Assembly: GCF_000975115.1 (NCBI RefSeq)
Contig: NZ_BBRE01000004.1
Coordinates: forward strand, 1 to 64,000
Length of the DNA: 64,000 nucleotides
Origin: Demequina oxidasica
GTDB lineage: Bacteria > Actinomycetota > Actinomycetes > Actinomycetales > Demequinaceae
Direction: 5' to 3'
Shown here piece after piece: positions 53,540 through 62,943 of the stretch. Made by a program: the position numbers and the translations under genes. The notes beneath the pieces are model-generated. The model was not told the DNA's origin. It was given only the letters and a program-made list of their open reading frames with translations, and did no database searches. Position 1 is the first letter of the stretch. Every line of letters begins with the position of its first letter.

Positions 53540-54403
53540 CTACTTGTTGGGTCCGCCATCGCGTCGGCGGAGGAACTGCTCGAACTCGGCGGCGATGGCG
53601 TCTCCAGAGGCCTCGGGAAGGCTAGTCTCGTCCATCAATTCCTCGAGTTGCTTGACGTGCTCAGCCACCTCCTCGTCCTCCTCGGCGAGTTCGTCCGCGC
53701 CGCGCTGCCAGGCCTCGGCCTCGTACGGCAAGTCCGCGAGGTCGATCGGCTCGCCAATGAAACGCTCCAACTGACCCAGCAACGCCATGGTGCCCTTGGG
53801 GCTGGGCGGGTGACCCACGTAGTGGGGAATGCCGACCCACATCGACAGCACTCGGATCCCGCGCAGGCTCGCCTCGTGTCCCAGCACGCCAAGAATGCCA
53901 GTGGGGCCGTCGTAGTCAGACCGCTCCAGGTCAAAGCGCTGGCGCGCCTCGGCGTCCTCGCTGGTAACGAACGTGGGAAGCGGGCGTGTGTGTGGAGCGT
54001 CGACCAGCAGCGCGCCGCACGTGATTAACGTCGTTACGCCTAGATCCGCCGCGTGGTCCAGGATCTCACCCGCAAAGCCGCGCCACCGCATGGATGGCTC
54101 GATGCCGCGCACGAGTGCGAGTTTGCGGTCCGAGTCCCAAGGGCCCGACGTAGTAGAGACGATGGTGCCGGGCCACGACACCACTCGGTCTCCTGACGGC
54201 AGCCGCGAGATGGTCGGTCGATTCACCTGGAAGTCGTGATATTTCTCGGAGTCGAGGGTCGCGTACTCGCCTGCGTTCCACCCCTGTACGAGGTGGTCAA
54301 GCGCGGCAGAGGCCGCCGACCCAGCATCATTCCAGCCCTCGAAGGCGGCGATCATGATCGACTCGTTGCGACCAAGCGTCAATGGGTCATTCTCGCTACT
54401 CAT
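53540..54403 (-). CDS. PAC2 family protein
   Basis: 287 aa. It has the fold pattern of the proteasome-assembly-chaperone 2 family (FEGWNDAGSAASAALDHL ... GALLVDAPHTRPLPTF ... GILGVLGHEASLRGIRVLSMWVGIPHYVG). The bacterial function is unclear; the M. tuberculosis homologue (Rv2125) sits in the same extended neighbourhood. The C-terminal ~70 residues are acidic and helical. TAGGCT (minus strand, 54410-54415) lies 6 nt before the ATG. Confidence 0.9.
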   Translation of the reverse strand: MSSENDPLTLGRNESIMIAAFEGWNDAGSAASAALDHLVQGWNAGEYATLDSEKYHDFQVNRPTISRLPSGDRVVSWPGTIVSTTSGPWDSDRKLALVRGIEPSMRWRGFAGEILDHAADLGVTTLITCGALLVDAPHTRPLPTFVTSEDAEARQRFDLERSDYDGPTGILGVLGHEASLRGIRVLSMWVGIPHYVGHPPSPKGTMALLGQLERFIGEPIDLADLPYEAEAWQRGADELAEEDEEVAEHVKQLEELMDETSLPEASGDAIAAEFEQFLRRRDGGPNK

Positions 54404-56170: not shown

Positions 56171-57280
56171 ATGGCAGATCAGAATCAGGGCACCCGCGGT
56201 ATCTCCTTTGGTCGGGTGCTCGGCGCGCGTGTCGTGGTCCAGCCCTCGACCCTCGTGATGCTCGTGATCCTCGCGTTCCTGCTGAGTTCGTCCGACGACG
56301 GCATCACCCGGCGCGGCTTCACGATTGGCCTGATTCTGGCCGCCGCGCTCATCGTCTCCGTGTTCCTCCACGAGGTCGCCCACGCAATCGCCGCCCGCGC
56401 GTTCAATCGCGATGTTCACGAGATTGTCCTCACGCTGTGGGGTGGCCACACCTCGTTCGACTCGCGCAATCTCACCCCCCTCGTCAATGGCGTGGTCTCA
56501 CTCGCGGGTCCCTTCGCCAATCTCTTGATCGCCGGCGTGGTCGCTCTCGAGTTGCAGGTCACCACGCCGGGCGGACTCCTGGGCGCTGCGCTGTGGTGGG
56601 TGGTGTGGGCCAACCTGCTGCTCGCCGCTTTCAACGCGCTTCCCGGAATTCCGATGGACGGCGGCCGCGTTTTGGAGGCAATCGTCTGGGGCGCCACCAA
56701 AAACCGTAACCGCGGCACCATGGTCGCCGCCTGGGCCGGCCGCGTCGTCGCGATCGGCGTCCTCGTGTTCGCGATTGGCGTGCCCTTCCTGCGCGGCTAC
56801 ACGCCCAGCATCTTCAGCATGCTGTGGGGTGTCCTGATCTTTGGCTTGCTCTGGCCTGCGGCATCGAACGCCCTTAAGGCGGCCAAGACCATGTCCCGGG
56901 TGGACAGCATCGGCGCCCGGTCGCTCATGGTGACGGCCGTCCCCATCCCGTTCGCCGCCACCGTCCACGAAGCCGCGGAGCTCGCCGCCCGCGCCGGAGC
57001 CCTCGAAGTGGTCGTTCTCGCGGCGGACCGCGCGCCGGCGGGGCACTTCCCGGTGTCACTCATCGATGCCGTGCCGGAGTCCGAGCGCGCACACACGCAC
57101 TTGCAGTCCGTCACCATGCCCATGCCGCGCGGGGCGGAGATGAGCCCGGACCTCCAGGGTCGCGAGTTCGTCAACTTCTTGCAGCAGTGGTGGGGCAAGA
57201 CCGAGGTGTGGGCCGTCGTCGAACACGGCCACGTCATCGGCGTCGTGCGAGCCCAGGACGTGCAGGGAGCCCTGCAGTAA
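56171..57280 (+). CDS. Site-2 protease family (M50) metalloprotease
   Basis: 369 aa intramembrane zinc protease. HEVAH at residues 67-71 (HExxH), second metal motif NALPGIPMDGGRVLEA near 160, several helices, and a C-terminal soluble part that resembles a CBS-type domain (SLMVTAVPIPFAAT...). It cuts transmembrane substrates such as anti-sigma factors; target unknown. TACGGT (56159-56164) ends 6 nt before ATG 56171, so leaderless. The next gene starts after 19 nt. Confidence 0.92.
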   Translation: MADQNQGTRGISFGRVLGARVVVQPSTLVMLVILAFLLSSSDDGITRRGFTIGLILAAALIVSVFLHEVAHAIAARAFNRDVHEIVLTLWGGHTSFDSRNLTPLVNGVVSLAGPFANLLIAGVVALELQVTTPGGLLGAALWWVVWANLLLAAFNALPGIPMDGGRVLEAIVWGATKNRNRGTMVAAWAGRVVAIGVLVFAIGVPFLRGYTPSIFSMLWGVLIFGLLWPAASNALKAAKTMSRVDSIGARSLMVTAVPIPFAATVHEAAELAARAGALEVVVLAADRAPAGHFPVSLIDAVPESERAHTHLQSVTMPMPRGAEMSPDLQGREFVNFLQQWWGKTEVWAVVEHGHVIGVVRAQDVQGALQ

Positions 57281-57299: not shown

Positions 57300-58334
57300 A
57301 TGACTTCACCGACCTCAGCGCCCACCGGCGCCGACCAGCGCCGCGGACCCCTCCGCGTAGGCGACCGCGTCCAATTGACCGATGCCAAGGGACGCCACCA
57401 CACCATCACCCTCATCGCGGGTAAGACTTTTCATACGCACCGCGGCCAGTTCACGCACGACGATCTGATCGGTCAGCCCGAAGGCACCGTGATCCGCAAC
57501 ACCGCCGGGGTGGACTACCTGGTGCTGCGCCCGCTGCTCAGCGACCTGGTGCTATCCATGCCGCGCGGAGCCGCCGTGATCTACCCCAAGGACGCCGGCC
57601 AGATCATTCAGATGGCTGACATCTACCCGGGGGCGCGCGTAGTCGAGGCCGGCGTGGGCTCCGGCGCGCTCACCATGTCGCTCCTGCGTGCAGTGGGCGA
57701 CGGCGGAGAGCTGATCTCGATCGAGCGTCGCGAGGACTTCGCGGACATCGCCCGGGCCAACGTCGAATCCCACTTTGGTGGTCCGCACCCCGCGTGGCGC
57801 TTGGAGATCGGCGACTTCGCTGACCAGGTGGCATTGGTCGCCGAGCCCGGCACCGTGGACCGCGTCATCCTCGACATGCTCGCACCGTGGGAAAACATCG
57901 AGGCCGCGGCTGATGCGCTGGCTCCCGGCGGCGTGTTCCTCGCCTACGTCGCGACGGCCACTCAGATGTCTCGCCTCGCGGAGGACCTGCGCGACCACGG
58001 CGGCTTCACCGAGCCGCACGCGTGGGAGAACCTGCTGCGCACCTGGCACCTCGAGGGCTTGTCCGTACGCCCCGATCACCGCATGATTGGCCACACCGGC
58101 TTCCTGATGACCGCCCGCCGCATGGCTCCCGGCGTGGACGCCCCGCTGCGTCACCGCCGCCCCGCCAAGGGCGCCTACCCGACCGCGGATGCCGAATGGA
58201 CGCCCGAGGATCTGGGCGAGCGCCCTGTGAGTGAGAAGAAGATCCGCAAGGTGCGCCGCGGCGCGCTCGACGCGACGCCCACGACAGACGCGACGACCGA
58301 TGCTGAGACGACTATGGCAGGAGAGGACAGCTGA
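57300..58334 (+). CDS. trmI: tRNA (adenine-58-N1)-methyltransferase TrmI
   Basis: 344 aa. A beta-barrel N-terminal domain is followed by the SAM-binding GVGSGALTMSLLRAVGD motif and VILDMLAPWEN, as in Rv2118c. It methylates A58 of tRNA. TAGACT (57288-57293) ends 6 nt before ATG 57300 (leaderless pattern). Its stop overlaps the ARC start (TGATG), as in mycobacterial trmI-mpa. A C-terminal tail of about 60 residues is disordered. Confidence 0.94.
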   Translation: MTSPTSAPTGADQRRGPLRVGDRVQLTDAKGRHHTITLIAGKTFHTHRGQFTHDDLIGQPEGTVIRNTAGVDYLVLRPLLSDLVLSMPRGAAVIYPKDAGQIIQMADIYPGARVVEAGVGSGALTMSLLRAVGDGGELISIERREDFADIARANVESHFGGPHPAWRLEIGDFADQVALVAEPGTVDRVILDMLAPWENIEAAADALAPGGVFLAYVATATQMSRLAEDLRDHGGFTEPHAWENLLRTWHLEGLSVRPDHRMIGHTGFLMTARRMAPGVDAPLRHRRPAKGAYPTADAEWTPEDLGERPVSEKKIRKVRRGALDATPTTDATTDAETTMAGEDS

Positions 58335-59743
58335 TGGTGGCAGAGGGCCAGGACAAGCTCGCGACCGCCGAGCGTCAGAACCGTGAACTGCAGCGCCTGC
58401 TGACCTTGGCGCGCGACCAGCTGGGCGAGATGAAGGTCAAGCTCGCCGAGGCATCGGCGCCGCCGCAGACGTTCGCCACCTTCGTGAAGTGGGCGGGTGA
58501 GCACGCGGACATCGTCTCGAGTGGCCGCCGCATGCGCGTCACCGTGCTGCCGTCACTGGGCAAGAACCTGGAGCCAGGGGACGAGGTGCTGCTCAACGCC
58601 ATGATGGTGGTGGTCGGTACCGCGGAGCCCGAGCGCGCCGGCCAGGCGGCGATTGTCCGCGAGGTGATCGATGCGGACCGCGTGTTGGTGGTCTCGCGTG
58701 GCGAGGACGAGCGCATTGTCATCATGATCGGCGGCGACGCCCGCTCGCGCGTGTCCGAGGGTGACACCGTCATCATCGACCCGCGCACCGGCTTTGCCTC
58801 GGAGAAGGTGGACCGCAGCGGTGTCGAGGCGCTCATGCTCGAAGAGGTGCCTGACGTGGACTACCGCGCGATCGGTGGCCTGGGCGCGCAGATCGAGCGC
58901 ATCCGCGACGCGATCGAATTGCCTATCCGTCATCCCGAGCTGTACATCGAACATGACTTGCGCCCGCCGCGTGGGCTGCTGCTGTACGGCCCTCCGGGCT
59001 GCGGCAAGACGTTGATCGCCAAGGCCGTCGCACACTCGTTGGGTGAGGCCGTGGGCGCGGACCGTTCCTACTTCCTTTCCGTCAAGGGCCCGGAGCTCCT
59101 CAACAAGTACGTGGGCGAGACCGAGCGGTACATTCGCACCATCTTTGAGCGCGCCCGTTCCAAGGCGTCCTCCGGCGCTCCCGTGGTGGTGTTCTTTGAC
59201 GAGATGGATGCACTGTTCCGTTCGCGTGGCTCCGGCGTGAGCTCCGACATGGAAACCACCATCGTCCCTCAGCTCCTCACCGAGCTGGACGGAGTCGAGG
59301 GGCTCAGCAACGTGATTGTGATCGGAGCCTCCAACCGTGAGGACATGATCGATCCGGCCATCCTGCGCCCCGGCCGCCTAGACGTAAAGATAGAGGTCTC
59401 GCGACCCGGCCCTGCGTCCGCGGCCGACATCTTCAGCAAGTACCTGACCGCATCGGTGCCGATGGCCCCCAGCGAACTCGCCCAGCACGGCGACGATGCT
59501 GTGGCGACGGCGCGCGCGCTCAACGCCGTGGCGGTCGACACGCTGTTCGCCCACCCGGACACCCCCGAGTACGTCTCGGGTGCGCTGATCCGCAACGTCG
59601 TGGACCGCGCAAAGACGGGGGCCATCAAGTCGCTGATCTCCGGCGGCGAGCGCGGCATCACCGCGGCTCACTTACGCCAGGCGTGCGACCAGGAACTGGT
59701 CGAGGCGCGTGCCGTAGCAGCTGGCTCGCTGGCGGGGGAGTAG
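58334..59743 (+). CDS. arc: ARC/Mpa AAA+ ATPase, short C-terminus lacking the proteasome-docking tail
   Basis: 469 aa, against about 520-610 usual for the family. Order: N-terminal coiled coil (about 7-40) that binds Pup, OB domains (50-165), AAA+ domain with Walker A GPPGCGKT (219-226) and Walker B VVFFDEMD (285-292). The protein ends ...ACDQELVEARAVAAGSLAGE, just after the AAA small subdomain; mycobacterial Mpa carries about 50 more residues ending in GQYL that docks on the 20S core. The sequence after the stop is dop in another frame, so no frameshift is evident. It probably unfolds pupylated substrates without a proteasome. Confidence 0.93.
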   Translation: MVAEGQDKLATAERQNRELQRLLTLARDQLGEMKVKLAEASAPPQTFATFVKWAGEHADIVSSGRRMRVTVLPSLGKNLEPGDEVLLNAMMVVVGTAEPERAGQAAIVREVIDADRVLVVSRGEDERIVIMIGGDARSRVSEGDTVIIDPRTGFASEKVDRSGVEALMLEEVPDVDYRAIGGLGAQIERIRDAIELPIRHPELYIEHDLRPPRGLLLYGPPGCGKTLIAKAVAHSLGEAVGADRSYFLSVKGPELLNKYVGETERYIRTIFERARSKASSGAPVVVFFDEMDALFRSRGSGVSSDMETTIVPQLLTELDGVEGLSNVIVIGASNREDMIDPAILRPGRLDVKIEVSRPGPASAADIFSKYLTASVPMAPSELAQHGDDAVATARALNAVAVDTLFAHPDTPEYVSGALIRNVVDRAKTGAIKSLISGGERGITAAHLRQACDQELVEARAVAAGSLAGE

Positions 59744-59746
59744 CCC

Positions 59747-61306
59747 GTGGAGGTGGAGGACGCAGCAGGTGGACTCGGTGCCGCACGCGTGATGGGGATC
59801 GAGACCGAATACGGCATCACCAACCCGGACCGCTCCGGCGCCAACCCCATTCTGATGTCCTCACGACTGGTGCAGGCCTGCCGTGCGTGGGCAGGGCAGT
59901 CCACCACCCGGTGGGACTACGGCGGCGAGGATCCACTGCAGGATCAGCGCGGTATGCGGAGATCGCGGGCGTCCGCGACCTCGGACATGCTGACCGACGC
60001 CACGGAGTATGACGAGGCGGTGCAGGCCGTCACGCTGCGCAGGCGCCGCGGCTCGTGGGAGGACCCCGCGCACCTCAACGCGGTTCTCGCCAACGGCGCG
60101 CGCTTCTACGTGGATCATGCGCATCCCGAGTACTCGGGCCCCGAGGTGAGCAACGCGCGCGACGCCGTGTTGTGGGACCGCGCCGGCGACGCGATCGCGC
60201 TCGCGGCCACGGTCGAGTACGAGCGTGAGGAGGATGAGCGGGTCGCGCTGTACAAGAACAACGTGGACGGCAAAGGAGCGAGCTACGGCACGCACGAGAA
60301 TTTCCTGATCCGCCGCGACACTGACTTTGACGACGTCATCAACCACCTCACCCCGCACCTGGTCACCCGCCAGATATTCGCTGGCGCCGGCCGCGTCGGG
60401 ATCGGACAGCGTGGCGAAGTTGCCGGCTTCCAGATGTCCCAGCGCGCCGACTACATGGAAGCGGAGGTGGGCCTCGAGACCACGTTGCGCCGGCCCATCA
60501 TCAACACCCGTGACGAGCCGCACGCGGAGCGCAGCAAGTGGCGCCGCCTGCACGTGATCATCGGCGACGCCAACTGCATGGATGTGCCCATCCTGCTCAA
60601 GACCGGCACTACGGCGCTGGTGTTAGCCGCCATCGAGGCGGCAGACACGCGCCTGGGTGCCTGCGAACTGCGCGAGCCGGTGGGCGACGTCCAGCGAGTG
60701 TCGCGAGACCTGACGCTGCGTGCCCCACTGGAGCTAGCATCGGGCGAAACGGCCACGGCGCTGCAGATTCAGCGCGCCCTGTTGGAAATCTGCCGCACCT
60801 ACGTCGCGAGCGCCACTGACGCGTATGTGATTACTCGGTGGGAAAGCGTGCTCGACCTGCTGGACCGCGACATCTTTTCCGCCGCTCGCGAGGTGGAGTG
60901 GGTCGCCAAACTGCAACTGCTGGGCCGCATGCGCTCAAAGTACGCTCCCGTCGACGAACTGGGAGGGGTGCAGGAAGTGCCATGGGACGATGCGCGCCTC
61001 GCGGCAGCGGACGTGCAGTGGAGCCAGCTCGGCACGGGACTCGCTGCACGCCTCGAGCGTGCCGGATCCTTCGAGCGGGTGGTGTCCGACGAGGACGTCG
61101 CCGCGGCAATGCGCACTGCGCCCCGCGACACCCGGGCACGCCTGCGTGGAGACATGGTGGCCGCCCGACCGGACCTTCTCGACGCGGCCGGATGGTCCTC
61201 CGTGGTCCTCGACCGCGAGACCGAGCACGGCGACCTCGAGGTGGTCCACCTGGACGACCCGCTCGCCACCACGCACGCCCTTCTCGACTCCCTGATCGGG
61301 GGATAG
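59747..61306 (+). CDS. dop: Depupylase/deamidase Dop
   Basis: 519 aa, carboxylate-amine ligase fold related to glutamine synthetase. The N-terminal ATP-site motif is ARVMGIETEYGITNPDRSGAN, followed by the longer loop with LYKNNVDGKGASYGTHENFL. It removes Pup from substrates and, in organisms whose Pup ends in Gln, deamidates it. Here Pup already ends in Glu, so only depupylation is needed. GTG 59747 has GGGGAG upstream, 3 nt after the ARC stop. Confidence 0.94.
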   Translation: MEVEDAAGGLGAARVMGIETEYGITNPDRSGANPILMSSRLVQACRAWAGQSTTRWDYGGEDPLQDQRGMRRSRASATSDMLTDATEYDEAVQAVTLRRRRGSWEDPAHLNAVLANGARFYVDHAHPEYSGPEVSNARDAVLWDRAGDAIALAATVEYEREEDERVALYKNNVDGKGASYGTHENFLIRRDTDFDDVINHLTPHLVTRQIFAGAGRVGIGQRGEVAGFQMSQRADYMEAEVGLETTLRRPIINTRDEPHAERSKWRRLHVIIGDANCMDVPILLKTGTTALVLAAIEAADTRLGACELREPVGDVQRVSRDLTLRAPLELASGETATALQIQRALLEICRTYVASATDAYVITRWESVLDLLDRDIFSAAREVEWVAKLQLLGRMRSKYAPVDELGGVQEVPWDDARLAAADVQWSQLGTGLAARLERAGSFERVVSDEDVAAAMRTAPRDTRARLRGDMVAARPDLLDAAGWSSVVLDRETEHGDLEVVHLDDPLATTHALLDSLIGG

Positions 61307-61309
61307 ACT
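61304..61309 (+). promoter_or_regulatory. -10 element of pup
   Basis: TAGACT ends 6 nt before the pup ATG at 61316, within the 3' end of dop. There is no ribosome binding site, so pup may be transcribed independently as a leaderless mRNA, allowing more Pup than the enzymes. Confidence 0.6.
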
Positions 61310-61315
61310 CGGAAC

Positions 61316-61495
61316 ATGCCTCAGACTCACTCATCCAGCCAGTCCCACGAGGACGACGTTCCCGACGCACCCGCAGCGCCTACCCAGGTCGCCAGCACCG
61401 ATGCGCTCGACGACCTGCTCGACGAGATCGATGGCTCGCTGCAGGTTAATGCGGAGCAGTTCGTACGTTCCTTTGTGCAAAAGGGCGGCGAGTAG
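61316..61495 (+). CDS. pup: Prokaryotic ubiquitin-like protein Pup, ending in Gly-Gly-Glu
   Basis: 59 aa, MPQTHSSSQSHEDDVPDAPA at the start, disordered and acidic, C-terminal half with the helical LDDLLDEIDGSL and NAEQFVRSFVQKGGE. Pup is attached through its terminal Glu side chain to lysines on substrates by PafA. Most mycobacterial/streptomycete Pups end in GGQ and must be deamidated; this one is encoded as GGE and is ready for ligation. The next gene is pafA, 23 nt on, with no prcB/prcA between. Confidence 0.96.
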   Translation: MPQTHSSSQSHEDDVPDAPAAPTQVASTDALDDLLDEIDGSLQVNAEQFVRSFVQKGGE

Positions 61496-61518
61496 GCCCG
61501 CCGGGCTCCGCCTCGGCC

Positions 61519-62943
61519 ATGATCTCCACGGATATCCCCGCGCCCCTAGACGTCGACCCCGCCCGCCGCATCTTTGGGCTCGAGACCGAATTCGGTCTGC
61601 ACCTCGACTCCGCAACGTCTCGCTCCGTCACGCCCGAGGAGGTTGCTGGTCACCTCTTCCACTCCGTGGTGCAGTGGGGCCGCTCCTCTAACGTGTTCCT
61701 GCCCAATGCCTCACGGCTGTACATCGACGTGGGCGCGCACCCCGAGTACGCGACCGCCGAATGCGACTCGTTGACTGACCTGATCGCGGCCGACAAGGCC
61801 GGCGAACGGATCGTGCACAACCTGATTGCAGGGGGCGAGGAGCGGTTGCGAGCGGCGGGCATCGACGGCACCATTCACCTGTACAAGAACAACGTGGACT
61901 CGGCCGGCAATAGCTACGGCTGCCACGAGAACTACTTGGTGCGTCGCCGCTCGGACTTCAGGGCCTTCGCCTCGAATCTGCTGCCGTTCCTCATCTCTCG
62001 TCAGATCGTGACGGGAGCCGGTTGCATCACCCGCACGCCCCAAGGCGCCCACTTCTCATTCTCCCCGCGCGCGGATCACATGTGGGAGGGGATGAGTTCG
62101 GCGACCACGCGCTCGCGGCCCATGATCAACACCCGGGACGAACCACACGCCAACGCCGAGTTGTACCGACGCATGCACATCATCGTGGGTGACTCTACGA
62201 TGGCGGAGCCCACCGCGCTGTTAAAGGTAGGCGCCACCGACTTGGTCCTGCGCATCATGGAGGCCCGTGCGGAATTCCCGCAGCTGGCATTGGCGCATGA
62301 GATGCAGGCGATTCGCGACATCGCACACGACCTCACCGGTCAGGCGACTGTTGAGCTGACCGACGGGCGCATGCTCACCGCGGTTCAGTTGCAACAAACC
62401 TACCTCGACGCGGTGCGCGCTCACGTGGGCGGGATCATCGCCCCCACCGCGGAGGTGGAGTCCATCCTGGACCTGTGGCAACGGGGGATCGACGCGGTGC
62501 GAACGCAGGATTTCACGCTGGTAGAGACCGAACTGGACTGGGCCATCAAGTACCGGGTGGTGAAGCGCTACCAGCGCAAGCTCGAGTGCGAACTCGACGA
62601 TCCACGCCTCGCGCGCCTCGAGATGGCGTTCCACGACATCTCTCCGCAGCGCGGCCTGTTTTACCGGTTGCAGAGCCAGGGTCTGGTGCGGCGCATCATC
62701 ACAGACGAGCAAATCGACCTTGCGGTCACGAACGCCCCCGCGACAACTCGTGCCCGCCTGCGAGGGCTCTTCGTTTCCGCGGCGCTCGCCGCCGGACGTG
62801 ACTTCACCGTGGACTGGGTACACCTCAAGATCACTGGTAGCGACGGCCGCACTGTGCTCCTCAAGGATCCGTTCAGGAACGAGGACGAGCGCGTAGACGT
62901 TCTGTTGGGGATGCTTGGTGCGCCCGCAGCGCCAGTAGAATAA
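61519..62943 (+). CDS. pafA: Pup-protein ligase PafA
   Basis: 474 aa, the same fold as Dop. Motifs: ARRIFGLETEFGLHLDS, the GAHPEYATAECDSLTDL block, LYKNNVDSAGNSYGCHENYL and SRPMINTRDEPHANAEL. It couples the gamma-carboxylate of Pup Glu to substrate lysines with ATP. ATG 61519 has no clear Shine-Dalgarno, being close behind pup. In mycobacteria the prcB and prcA genes lie between pup and pafA, but here they do not. Confidence 0.95.
   Translation: MISTDIPAPLDVDPARRIFGLETEFGLHLDSATSRSVTPEEVAGHLFHSVVQWGRSSNVFLPNASRLYIDVGAHPEYATAECDSLTDLIAADKAGERIVHNLIAGGEERLRAAGIDGTIHLYKNNVDSAGNSYGCHENYLVRRRSDFRAFASNLLPFLISRQIVTGAGCITRTPQGAHFSFSPRADHMWEGMSSATTRSRPMINTRDEPHANAELYRRMHIIVGDSTMAEPTALLKVGATDLVLRIMEARAEFPQLALAHEMQAIRDIAHDLTGQATVELTDGRMLTAVQLQQTYLDAVRAHVGGIIAPTAEVESILDLWQRGIDAVRTQDFTLVETELDWAIKYRVVKRYQRKLECELDDPRLARLEMAFHDISPQRGLFYRLQSQGLVRRIITDEQIDLAVTNAPATTRARLRGLFVSAALAAGRDFTVDWVHLKITGSDGRTVLLKDPFRNEDERVDVLLGMLGAPAAPVE

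Follow-up and report, generated by a model that had tools for sequence, protein, structure and literature searches.

A Pup locus without 20S proteasome genes in Demequina oxidasica, with an ARC ATPase lacking both proteasome-docking parts

The stretch of DNA analysed here (the window) comprises 64,000 nucleotides of the actinobacterium Demequina oxidasica (contig NZ_BBRE01000004.1, positions 1 to 64,000) and carries an intact trmI-arc-dop-pup-pafA run (57300-62943), in which all five genes, identified by direct reading and by profile, point in the same direction. The first gene, trmI (57300-58334, + strand), codes for a tRNA methyltransferase-like protein (PF14801, 96.2 bits; PF08704, 74.5 bits), and its stop overlaps the ATG of arc (58334) by one base. 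The product of arc (58334-59743, +) is a homologue of Mpa (TIGR03689, 605 bits against a cut-off of 505; PF17758, PF16450 and PF00004). It is followed by dop, encoding the depupylase/deamidase (59747-61306, +; TIGR03688, 556 bits, cut-off 492), by pup, encoding a 59-residue Pup that ends in VQKGGE (61316-61495, +; PF05639, 60.6 bits; TIGR03687, 63.3 bits), and by pafA, encoding the Pup-protein ligase (61519-62943, +; TIGR03686, 658 bits, cut-off 551). ARC, Dop, Pup and PafA exceed the NCBIfam cut-offs and TrmI the Pfam ones (nothing above cut-off was found for TrmI in the NCBIfam profile search), and on these scores chance open reading frames were rejected. The stop codon of pup ends at 61495 and pafA begins with an ATG at 61519, leaving 23 nt between them (61496-61518, +), at the site that prcB-prcA occupy in 20S-bearing relatives. 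The window Demequina is close to D. aurantiaca, and its Dop is 95% identical to that of locus L001. Order and strand of arc, dop, pup and pafA are constant in all 34 Demequinaceae loci that hold all four (L001-L035 minus L034, which is cut off). At one locus only, L029 (Demequina), about 0.8 kb separates dop from pup; at L069 (D. litorisediminis) arc, dop and pafA each span several frames, probably through sequencing errors.

Reading of the sequence revealed no 20S genes between pup and pafA, and the complete gene order with pafA 23 nt behind pup and no prcB/prcA, as described in an initial annotation of the window, is confirmed by both sequence and profiles. That annotation had also pointed to prcA or prcB elsewhere in the genome as the observation that would speak against it. 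The proteasome family profile PF00227, which also detects genomes with HslV alone, matches nothing in this genome (2.62 Mb in 8 contigs, 99.25% complete) and nothing in the 47 Demequinaceae genomes surveyed, among them the single-contig G004, G022, G034 and G037, whereas each of the 47 has a Pup match. With TIGR03691, the model for the bacterial 20S alpha subunit, none of the 47 exceeded the cut-off either (best stray match E 0.05), and this genome yielded no hit at E values up to 10; the control genomes of that family search also stayed below the cut-off, but the PrcA proteins of two relatives score 194 and 274 bits with the model. As for sensitivity, an even sample of 297 genomes of the order gave PF00227 matches in 166, and in G104 and G208 both subunits are detected, down to a score of 28.7 bits (G208); all four of these subunits were confirmed by TIGR03690 and TIGR03691. 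The proteasome activator Bpa (PF10759) is matched in none of 21 20S-less genomes, the own genome included, whereas 20 of 25 20S-bearing genomes have it; a further search of the 47 Demequinaceae genomes, in which the controls were silent, also gave no Bpa match. This agrees with the review PMC8223512, according to which Bpa is absent from 20S-less species. The same review states that every 20S-bearing species has Bpa, a statement at odds with five genomes that carry the 20S but gave no Bpa match (G054, G067, G125, G104 and G208), though two of them are 94-95% complete and a profile miss is possible.

The spacing of pup and pafA places this absence in context. Taken as the distance between the stop codon of pup and the first PafA residue that aligns, in loci whose stretch held both genes, it is 7-58 nt in 35/35 Demequinaceae pairs and -4 to 128 nt in 69/69 pairs of other 20S-less genomes; in 20S-bearing genomes it is 1434-2145 nt (27/27 pairs). 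In L197 and L198 prcB-prcA sit precisely between pup and pafA. Judging from this survey, the 20S genes are missing exactly at the prcB-prcA site of relatives. Both the spacing and the prcB-prcA position fit a secondary loss of the 20S, which is also the view of the review PMC8223512.

The most distinctive feature of the locus lies in the ATPase. Mpa touches the 20S at two contacts, namely a C-terminal GQYL motif and the beta-hairpin 501-505 (ANGDK) of its beta-grasp domain (PMC8755798). The window ARC aligns with residues 67-557 of the 609 of solved Mpa and comprises, after an N-terminal segment that begins to align at Mpa residue 67, two OB domains followed by a single AAA domain. Its Walker motifs (A, GPPGCGKT; B, FFDEMD) are intact, as is a pore loop of the aromatic-hydrophobic-Gly type (KYVGE). 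At T410/P411 (59561-59566, +) the alignment to Mpa has a gap, where an 18-residue stretch with the ANGDK hairpin, which in Mpa makes contact with the 20S gate, is deleted, and at the end of arc (59705-59743, +; ..ARAVAAGSLAGE, stop) the protein stops short of what is left of the beta-grasp domain and of the GQYL tail, some 50 residues in Mpa. In an alignment of 156 ARC sequences (36 from Demequinaceae, 42 from 20S-bearing and 78 from other 20S-less genomes), the hairpin segment measures 8-9 residues in 36/36 Demequinaceae versus 26 in 42/42 ARCs of 20S-bearing genomes, and the C-tail 19-21 residues in 36/36 versus 50-83 in the 42. A G[QPH]YL ending is seen in 38 of the 42, and a YL ending in 0/36 Demequinaceae, whose last residues vary (AGE, AGA, REG, ELG, GEY). 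All 36 Demequinaceae share the same Walker A and pore loop 1 sequences, and the Walker B core FFDEM is likewise present in 36/36. Judged by alignment, the ARC of Demequinaceae has thus lost the beta-grasp docking domain in both its parts, the hairpin as well as the GQYL-bearing C-terminal half.

Among the 78 other 20S-less ARCs the hairpin segment is at least 24 residues long in 76 (exactly 26 in 70). The sole one to match the double loss of Demequinaceae is L191 (segment 6, C-tail 20), with L189 showing a partial loss (segment 17, C-tail 20). A non-conserved hairpin sequence is reported for 20S-less species (PMC8755798). The available sections of PMC8755798, PMC12288473 and PMC3511204 hold no description of a complete loss of the beta-grasp domain, which may nonetheless be published.

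The remaining components retain the residues expected of working enzymes and tag. The catalytic aspartate D70 of PafA aligns with D64 of the C. glutamicum PafA (4b0t), at a position that is Asn in 4bjr. Alignment to the solved Dop 4b0r shows that the catalytic aspartate D123 is retained, as is the Dop-loop region. This region measures 52-57 residues in the 36 Dop reads, out of 37 from Demequinaceae, where both anchors could be located; the count is restricted to this family, the motif filters being too narrow for Dop from elsewhere. Pup keeps its N-terminal tail and conserved C-terminal half (alignment to the solved 3m9d, 7px9 and 3m91), and with its GGE end it represents the PupE form, which should need no deamidation (PupQ/PupE; PMC3511204). 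Since Dop is conserved even where deamidation is unnecessary, depupylation is the probable reason for keeping it. GGE endings occur in 9/36 Demequinaceae Pups (counting L069 and L071 and excluding L034 and the window, itself also GGE), 19/69 other 20S-less loci and 4/34 20S-bearing loci, with no Pup seen inside the stretch in 18 of the 157 loci surveyed. Both endings are found in Demequinaceae, the E-forms falling in five separate places of the tree, and the ending changes 19 times over the whole pathway tree. With the two states clumped on the gene tree, we make no claim for the GGE ending as a marker of 20S-less genomes.

Between the window and L001, dN/dS (Nei-Gojobori) is 0.034 for arc, 0.075 for dop, 0.040 for pup and 0.028 for pafA, with 0.038 for trmI as a yardstick. 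In five more distant comparisons the four genes lie at 0.13-0.26 and trmI at 0.07-0.23, ratios that are rough on account of the large synonymous change. Thus, strong purifying selection acts on arc, dop, pup and pafA, and the low dN/dS, together with the aligned catalytic aspartates, indicates that the Pup pathway is maintained and not decaying.

In light of these observations, we consider it likely that D. oxidasica has a complete and functional Pup locus whose 20S was lost in an ancestor, and in which Pup serves as a reversible tag and ARC as a stand-alone unfoldase that disassembles or remodels the tagged proteins. From the gene content, the absence of 20S matches, the loss of docking parts, the intact motifs and the purifying selection, we infer activities of the following kind. 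PafA would ligate Pup, already ending in Glu, to lysines of its targets, and Dop would remove it again. ARC would bind Pup via its N-terminal helices, thread the loose Pup N-terminus into its pore and pull, so that the target might lose its fold, be drawn out of a complex or be taken apart, and would afterwards be released without degradation by a docked 20S. Release in place of degradation is suggested by an ARC without both docking contacts and by the failure to find a 20S. These steps follow published descriptions, in which PafA ligates Pup through its C-terminal glutamate and Dop removes it, and Mpa/ARC binds Pup by coiled coils and threads its N-terminus (PMC8755798, PMC3511204). The loss of proteasome docking in ARC suggests that tagging serves to take proteins apart or to regulate them. 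The idea of the initial annotation that Pup may act here as a reversible tag or in disassembly instead of degradation is partly supported: the loss of docking contacts, the lack of a Bpa match and the strong conservation of the four genes fit a non-degradative role, which for Demequina itself is something that we infer.

The closest precedent is Corynebacterium glutamicum, which has the same four genes (ARC, Dop, Pup and PafA) with pup directly before pafA, no 20S and an ATPase without the C-terminal docking motif (PMC3511204, PMC12288473), and in which pupylated ferritin is taken apart and its iron released (PMC8223512, PMC12288473). However, the C. glutamicum ARC keeps the beta-hairpin, with the sequence IDGSV (PMC8755798), whereas in the Demequina ARC both the hairpin and the C-terminal beta-grasp half are lost. 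With mycobacteria, Demequina shares orthologous ARC/Mpa, Dop, Pup and PafA, as judged by the NCBIfam models, but it lacks a PrcB/PrcA match, a Bpa match, GQYL and the beta-grasp hairpin and tail. The C. glutamicum Pup presumably ends in Glu as well, and its ferritin is reportedly pupylated at K78, a site for which we claim no comparison.

Several points weigh against the proposed disassembly role and have to be set beside it. The own genome is a draft in 8 contigs. Four of the 42 ARCs of 20S-bearing genomes (two f7, two f11) are also without a GQYL-type end, so the absence of GQYL alone is no proof against a working proteasome; and the beta-grasp parts persist in most other 20S-less relatives, so that a lineage that loses the 20S need not lose them as well. 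As to targets, the two PF00210 proteins encoded in the genome, a BfrB-type ferritin (L247, E 2.4e-57 to BfrB 3qd8) and a Dps-like protein, are obvious candidates, but to take ferritin as a target here is a guess from gene presence. Another protease, such as ClpP, FtsH or Lon, could degrade proteins once ARC has unfolded them. Finally, a gene for an M50 family peptidase (56171-57280, +; PF02163, 63 bits) lies directly upstream of trmI, and is found at the same place in 33 of the 35 Demequinaceae loci L001-L035, the two exceptions (L010 and L019) being contigs that begin within or just before trmI.

Four rival explanations were weighed. That Pup is a purely reversible regulatory tag, with ARC acting on something other than pupylated proteins, we regard as unlikely: a Dop that is conserved while the Glu-ending Pup should not require it for activation does speak for depupylation as the selected role, but the constant order and strand of arc-dop-pup-pafA (34/34 loci, including L029 with its 0.8 kb between dop and pup) and the retention of the Pup tail and conserved half speak against this reading. 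Somewhat less probable still is that ARC feeds another protease, be it ClpP or an unrecognised one on a new ARC exit face, so that Pup would remain a degradation tag. ARC can probably thread proteins, with pore loop and ATPase motifs kept in 36/36, other compartmental proteases are generally usual in such genomes, and the M50 peptidase gene recurs upstream of trmI; yet both known 20S-docking contacts are gone, the unconserved C-terminal ends of Demequinaceae ARCs imply no common C-terminal docking motif, no protease gene lies inside the five-gene run from trmI to pafA, and M50 peptidases are intramembrane enzymes, not chambers.

A decaying pathway, left as a relic after the loss of the 20S, could be read from the missing 20S genes and the ARC domain loss, but was rejected as very improbable next to dN/dS values of 0.028-0.075 between close species, similar to trmI, the presence of Pup in every family genome and the catalytic motifs kept. 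Least probable of all is a 20S that escaped assembly or diverged beyond detection: the draft state of the genome (99.25% complete) speaks for it, but the 47 family genomes, single-contig ones included, are negative with PF00227 and with TIGR03691, there is no Bpa match, and PF00227 still finds subunits as weak as that of G208. On these grounds a hidden or unassembled 20S was rejected.

The beta-grasp collar of Mpa sits at the channel exit and docks the 20S. It is conceivable, and we put this forward tentatively, being slightly more inclined to doubt than to accept it, that ARC was rebuilt in Demequinaceae as a free-standing disassembly motor by excision of this collar, and that the collar kept in most other 20S-less relatives serves a second purpose, with which Demequinaceae dispensed. 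Such a purpose might be gating of the exit or contact with another partner.

The 20S-less arrangement extends well beyond this family. The Pup_ligase family (PF03136), which covers both PafA and Dop, is represented in 269 of the 297 genomes of the order, all 166 20S-bearing ones among these, and 103 of the 269 have tagging genes without a 20S match: 24 in f1 (Demequinaceae), 23 in f3, 17 in f4, 8 in f6, 1 in f9, 20 in f11, 7 in f17 and 3 in f20, the last being 67-90% complete, so that their absences may be false. The remark of the initial annotation that pupylation without a proteasome is known in a few actinobacteria hence understates its spread. Outside f1 and f20, ARC is kept in 76/76 20S-less Pup genomes; the loci of f3, f4, f11 and parts of f6, f9 and f17 resemble those of Demequinaceae in keeping ARC and in having pup adjoin pafA, but differ from them in the double beta-grasp loss, which elsewhere is complete in L191 only and partial in L189. 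A midpoint-rooted FastTree tree of the pathway, with 150 tips built from ARC, Dop and PafA (the last for 131 of them), requires 9 changes of 20S state by Fitch, or 11 losses if the 20S was never regained; support is weak at several nodes, and the tree traces the pathway and not the species. Demequinaceae (f1) group in it with f4 and most of f3, all of them 20S-less, and the loss in Demequinaceae may on this tree be either an event of their own or one joint with f4 and f3. The 20S-less arrangement is therefore common in the order and probably arose repeatedly.

This arrangement as such is known, the reviews PMC3511204 and PMC8223512 describing 20S loss, pup adjoining pafA, ARC without the docking motif and the absence of Bpa; what is unusual is an ARC without its docking parts in 36/36 Demequinaceae. 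Our literature search found no earlier report of pupylation in Demequina, and the functional work cited on proteasome-free pupylation concerns one organism, C. glutamicum. Demequinaceae, with their naturally minimal ARC, offer a clean system for the role of Pup and ARC without a protease, and relatives with a retained beta-grasp domain provide the comparison for what it might do where no proteasome docks.

Some further observations were made along the way. Near the locus, the window encodes a PAC2 family protein (53540-54403, - strand; PF09754, 182 bits) in a genome without a 20S match. The PAC2 family is related to the eukaryotic 20S assembly chaperones. Actinobacterial PAC2 relatives are discussed in PMC4255298. 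Neither Pup ligase/Dop nor 20S is matched in 28/297 genomes of the order; among the 20 listed, 16 belong to f19 and 4 to f4. The f11 loci L197 (G208) and L198 (G104) have prcB-prcA together with an ARC without GQYL and no Bpa match, and may represent a proteasome in the course of loss, its activators having been lost first; the G208 beta subunit is just 7 bits over the TIGR03690 cut-off, and G242, of the same genus, has no PF00227 match. Four loci, L121 (G271, f9) and L124, L125 and L128 (f3, g63), are 20S-less and still have an ARC ending in YL (GTYL, RDYL), which would fit a recent loss of the 20S. In L237 and L238 (G052 and G114, f7; ARC was obtained from 2 of 23 20S-bearing genomes of this family) 20S and Bpa are present and ARC ends in PDLL or SSLI, not GQYL. 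Lastly, two genomes of f3 (g21), G213 (L119, L133) and G187 (L129, L140), each hold two ARC genes, four PF03136 matches and two pup genes, and the ARC/Dop of L119 group with f17 in the pathway tree, which suggests transfer.

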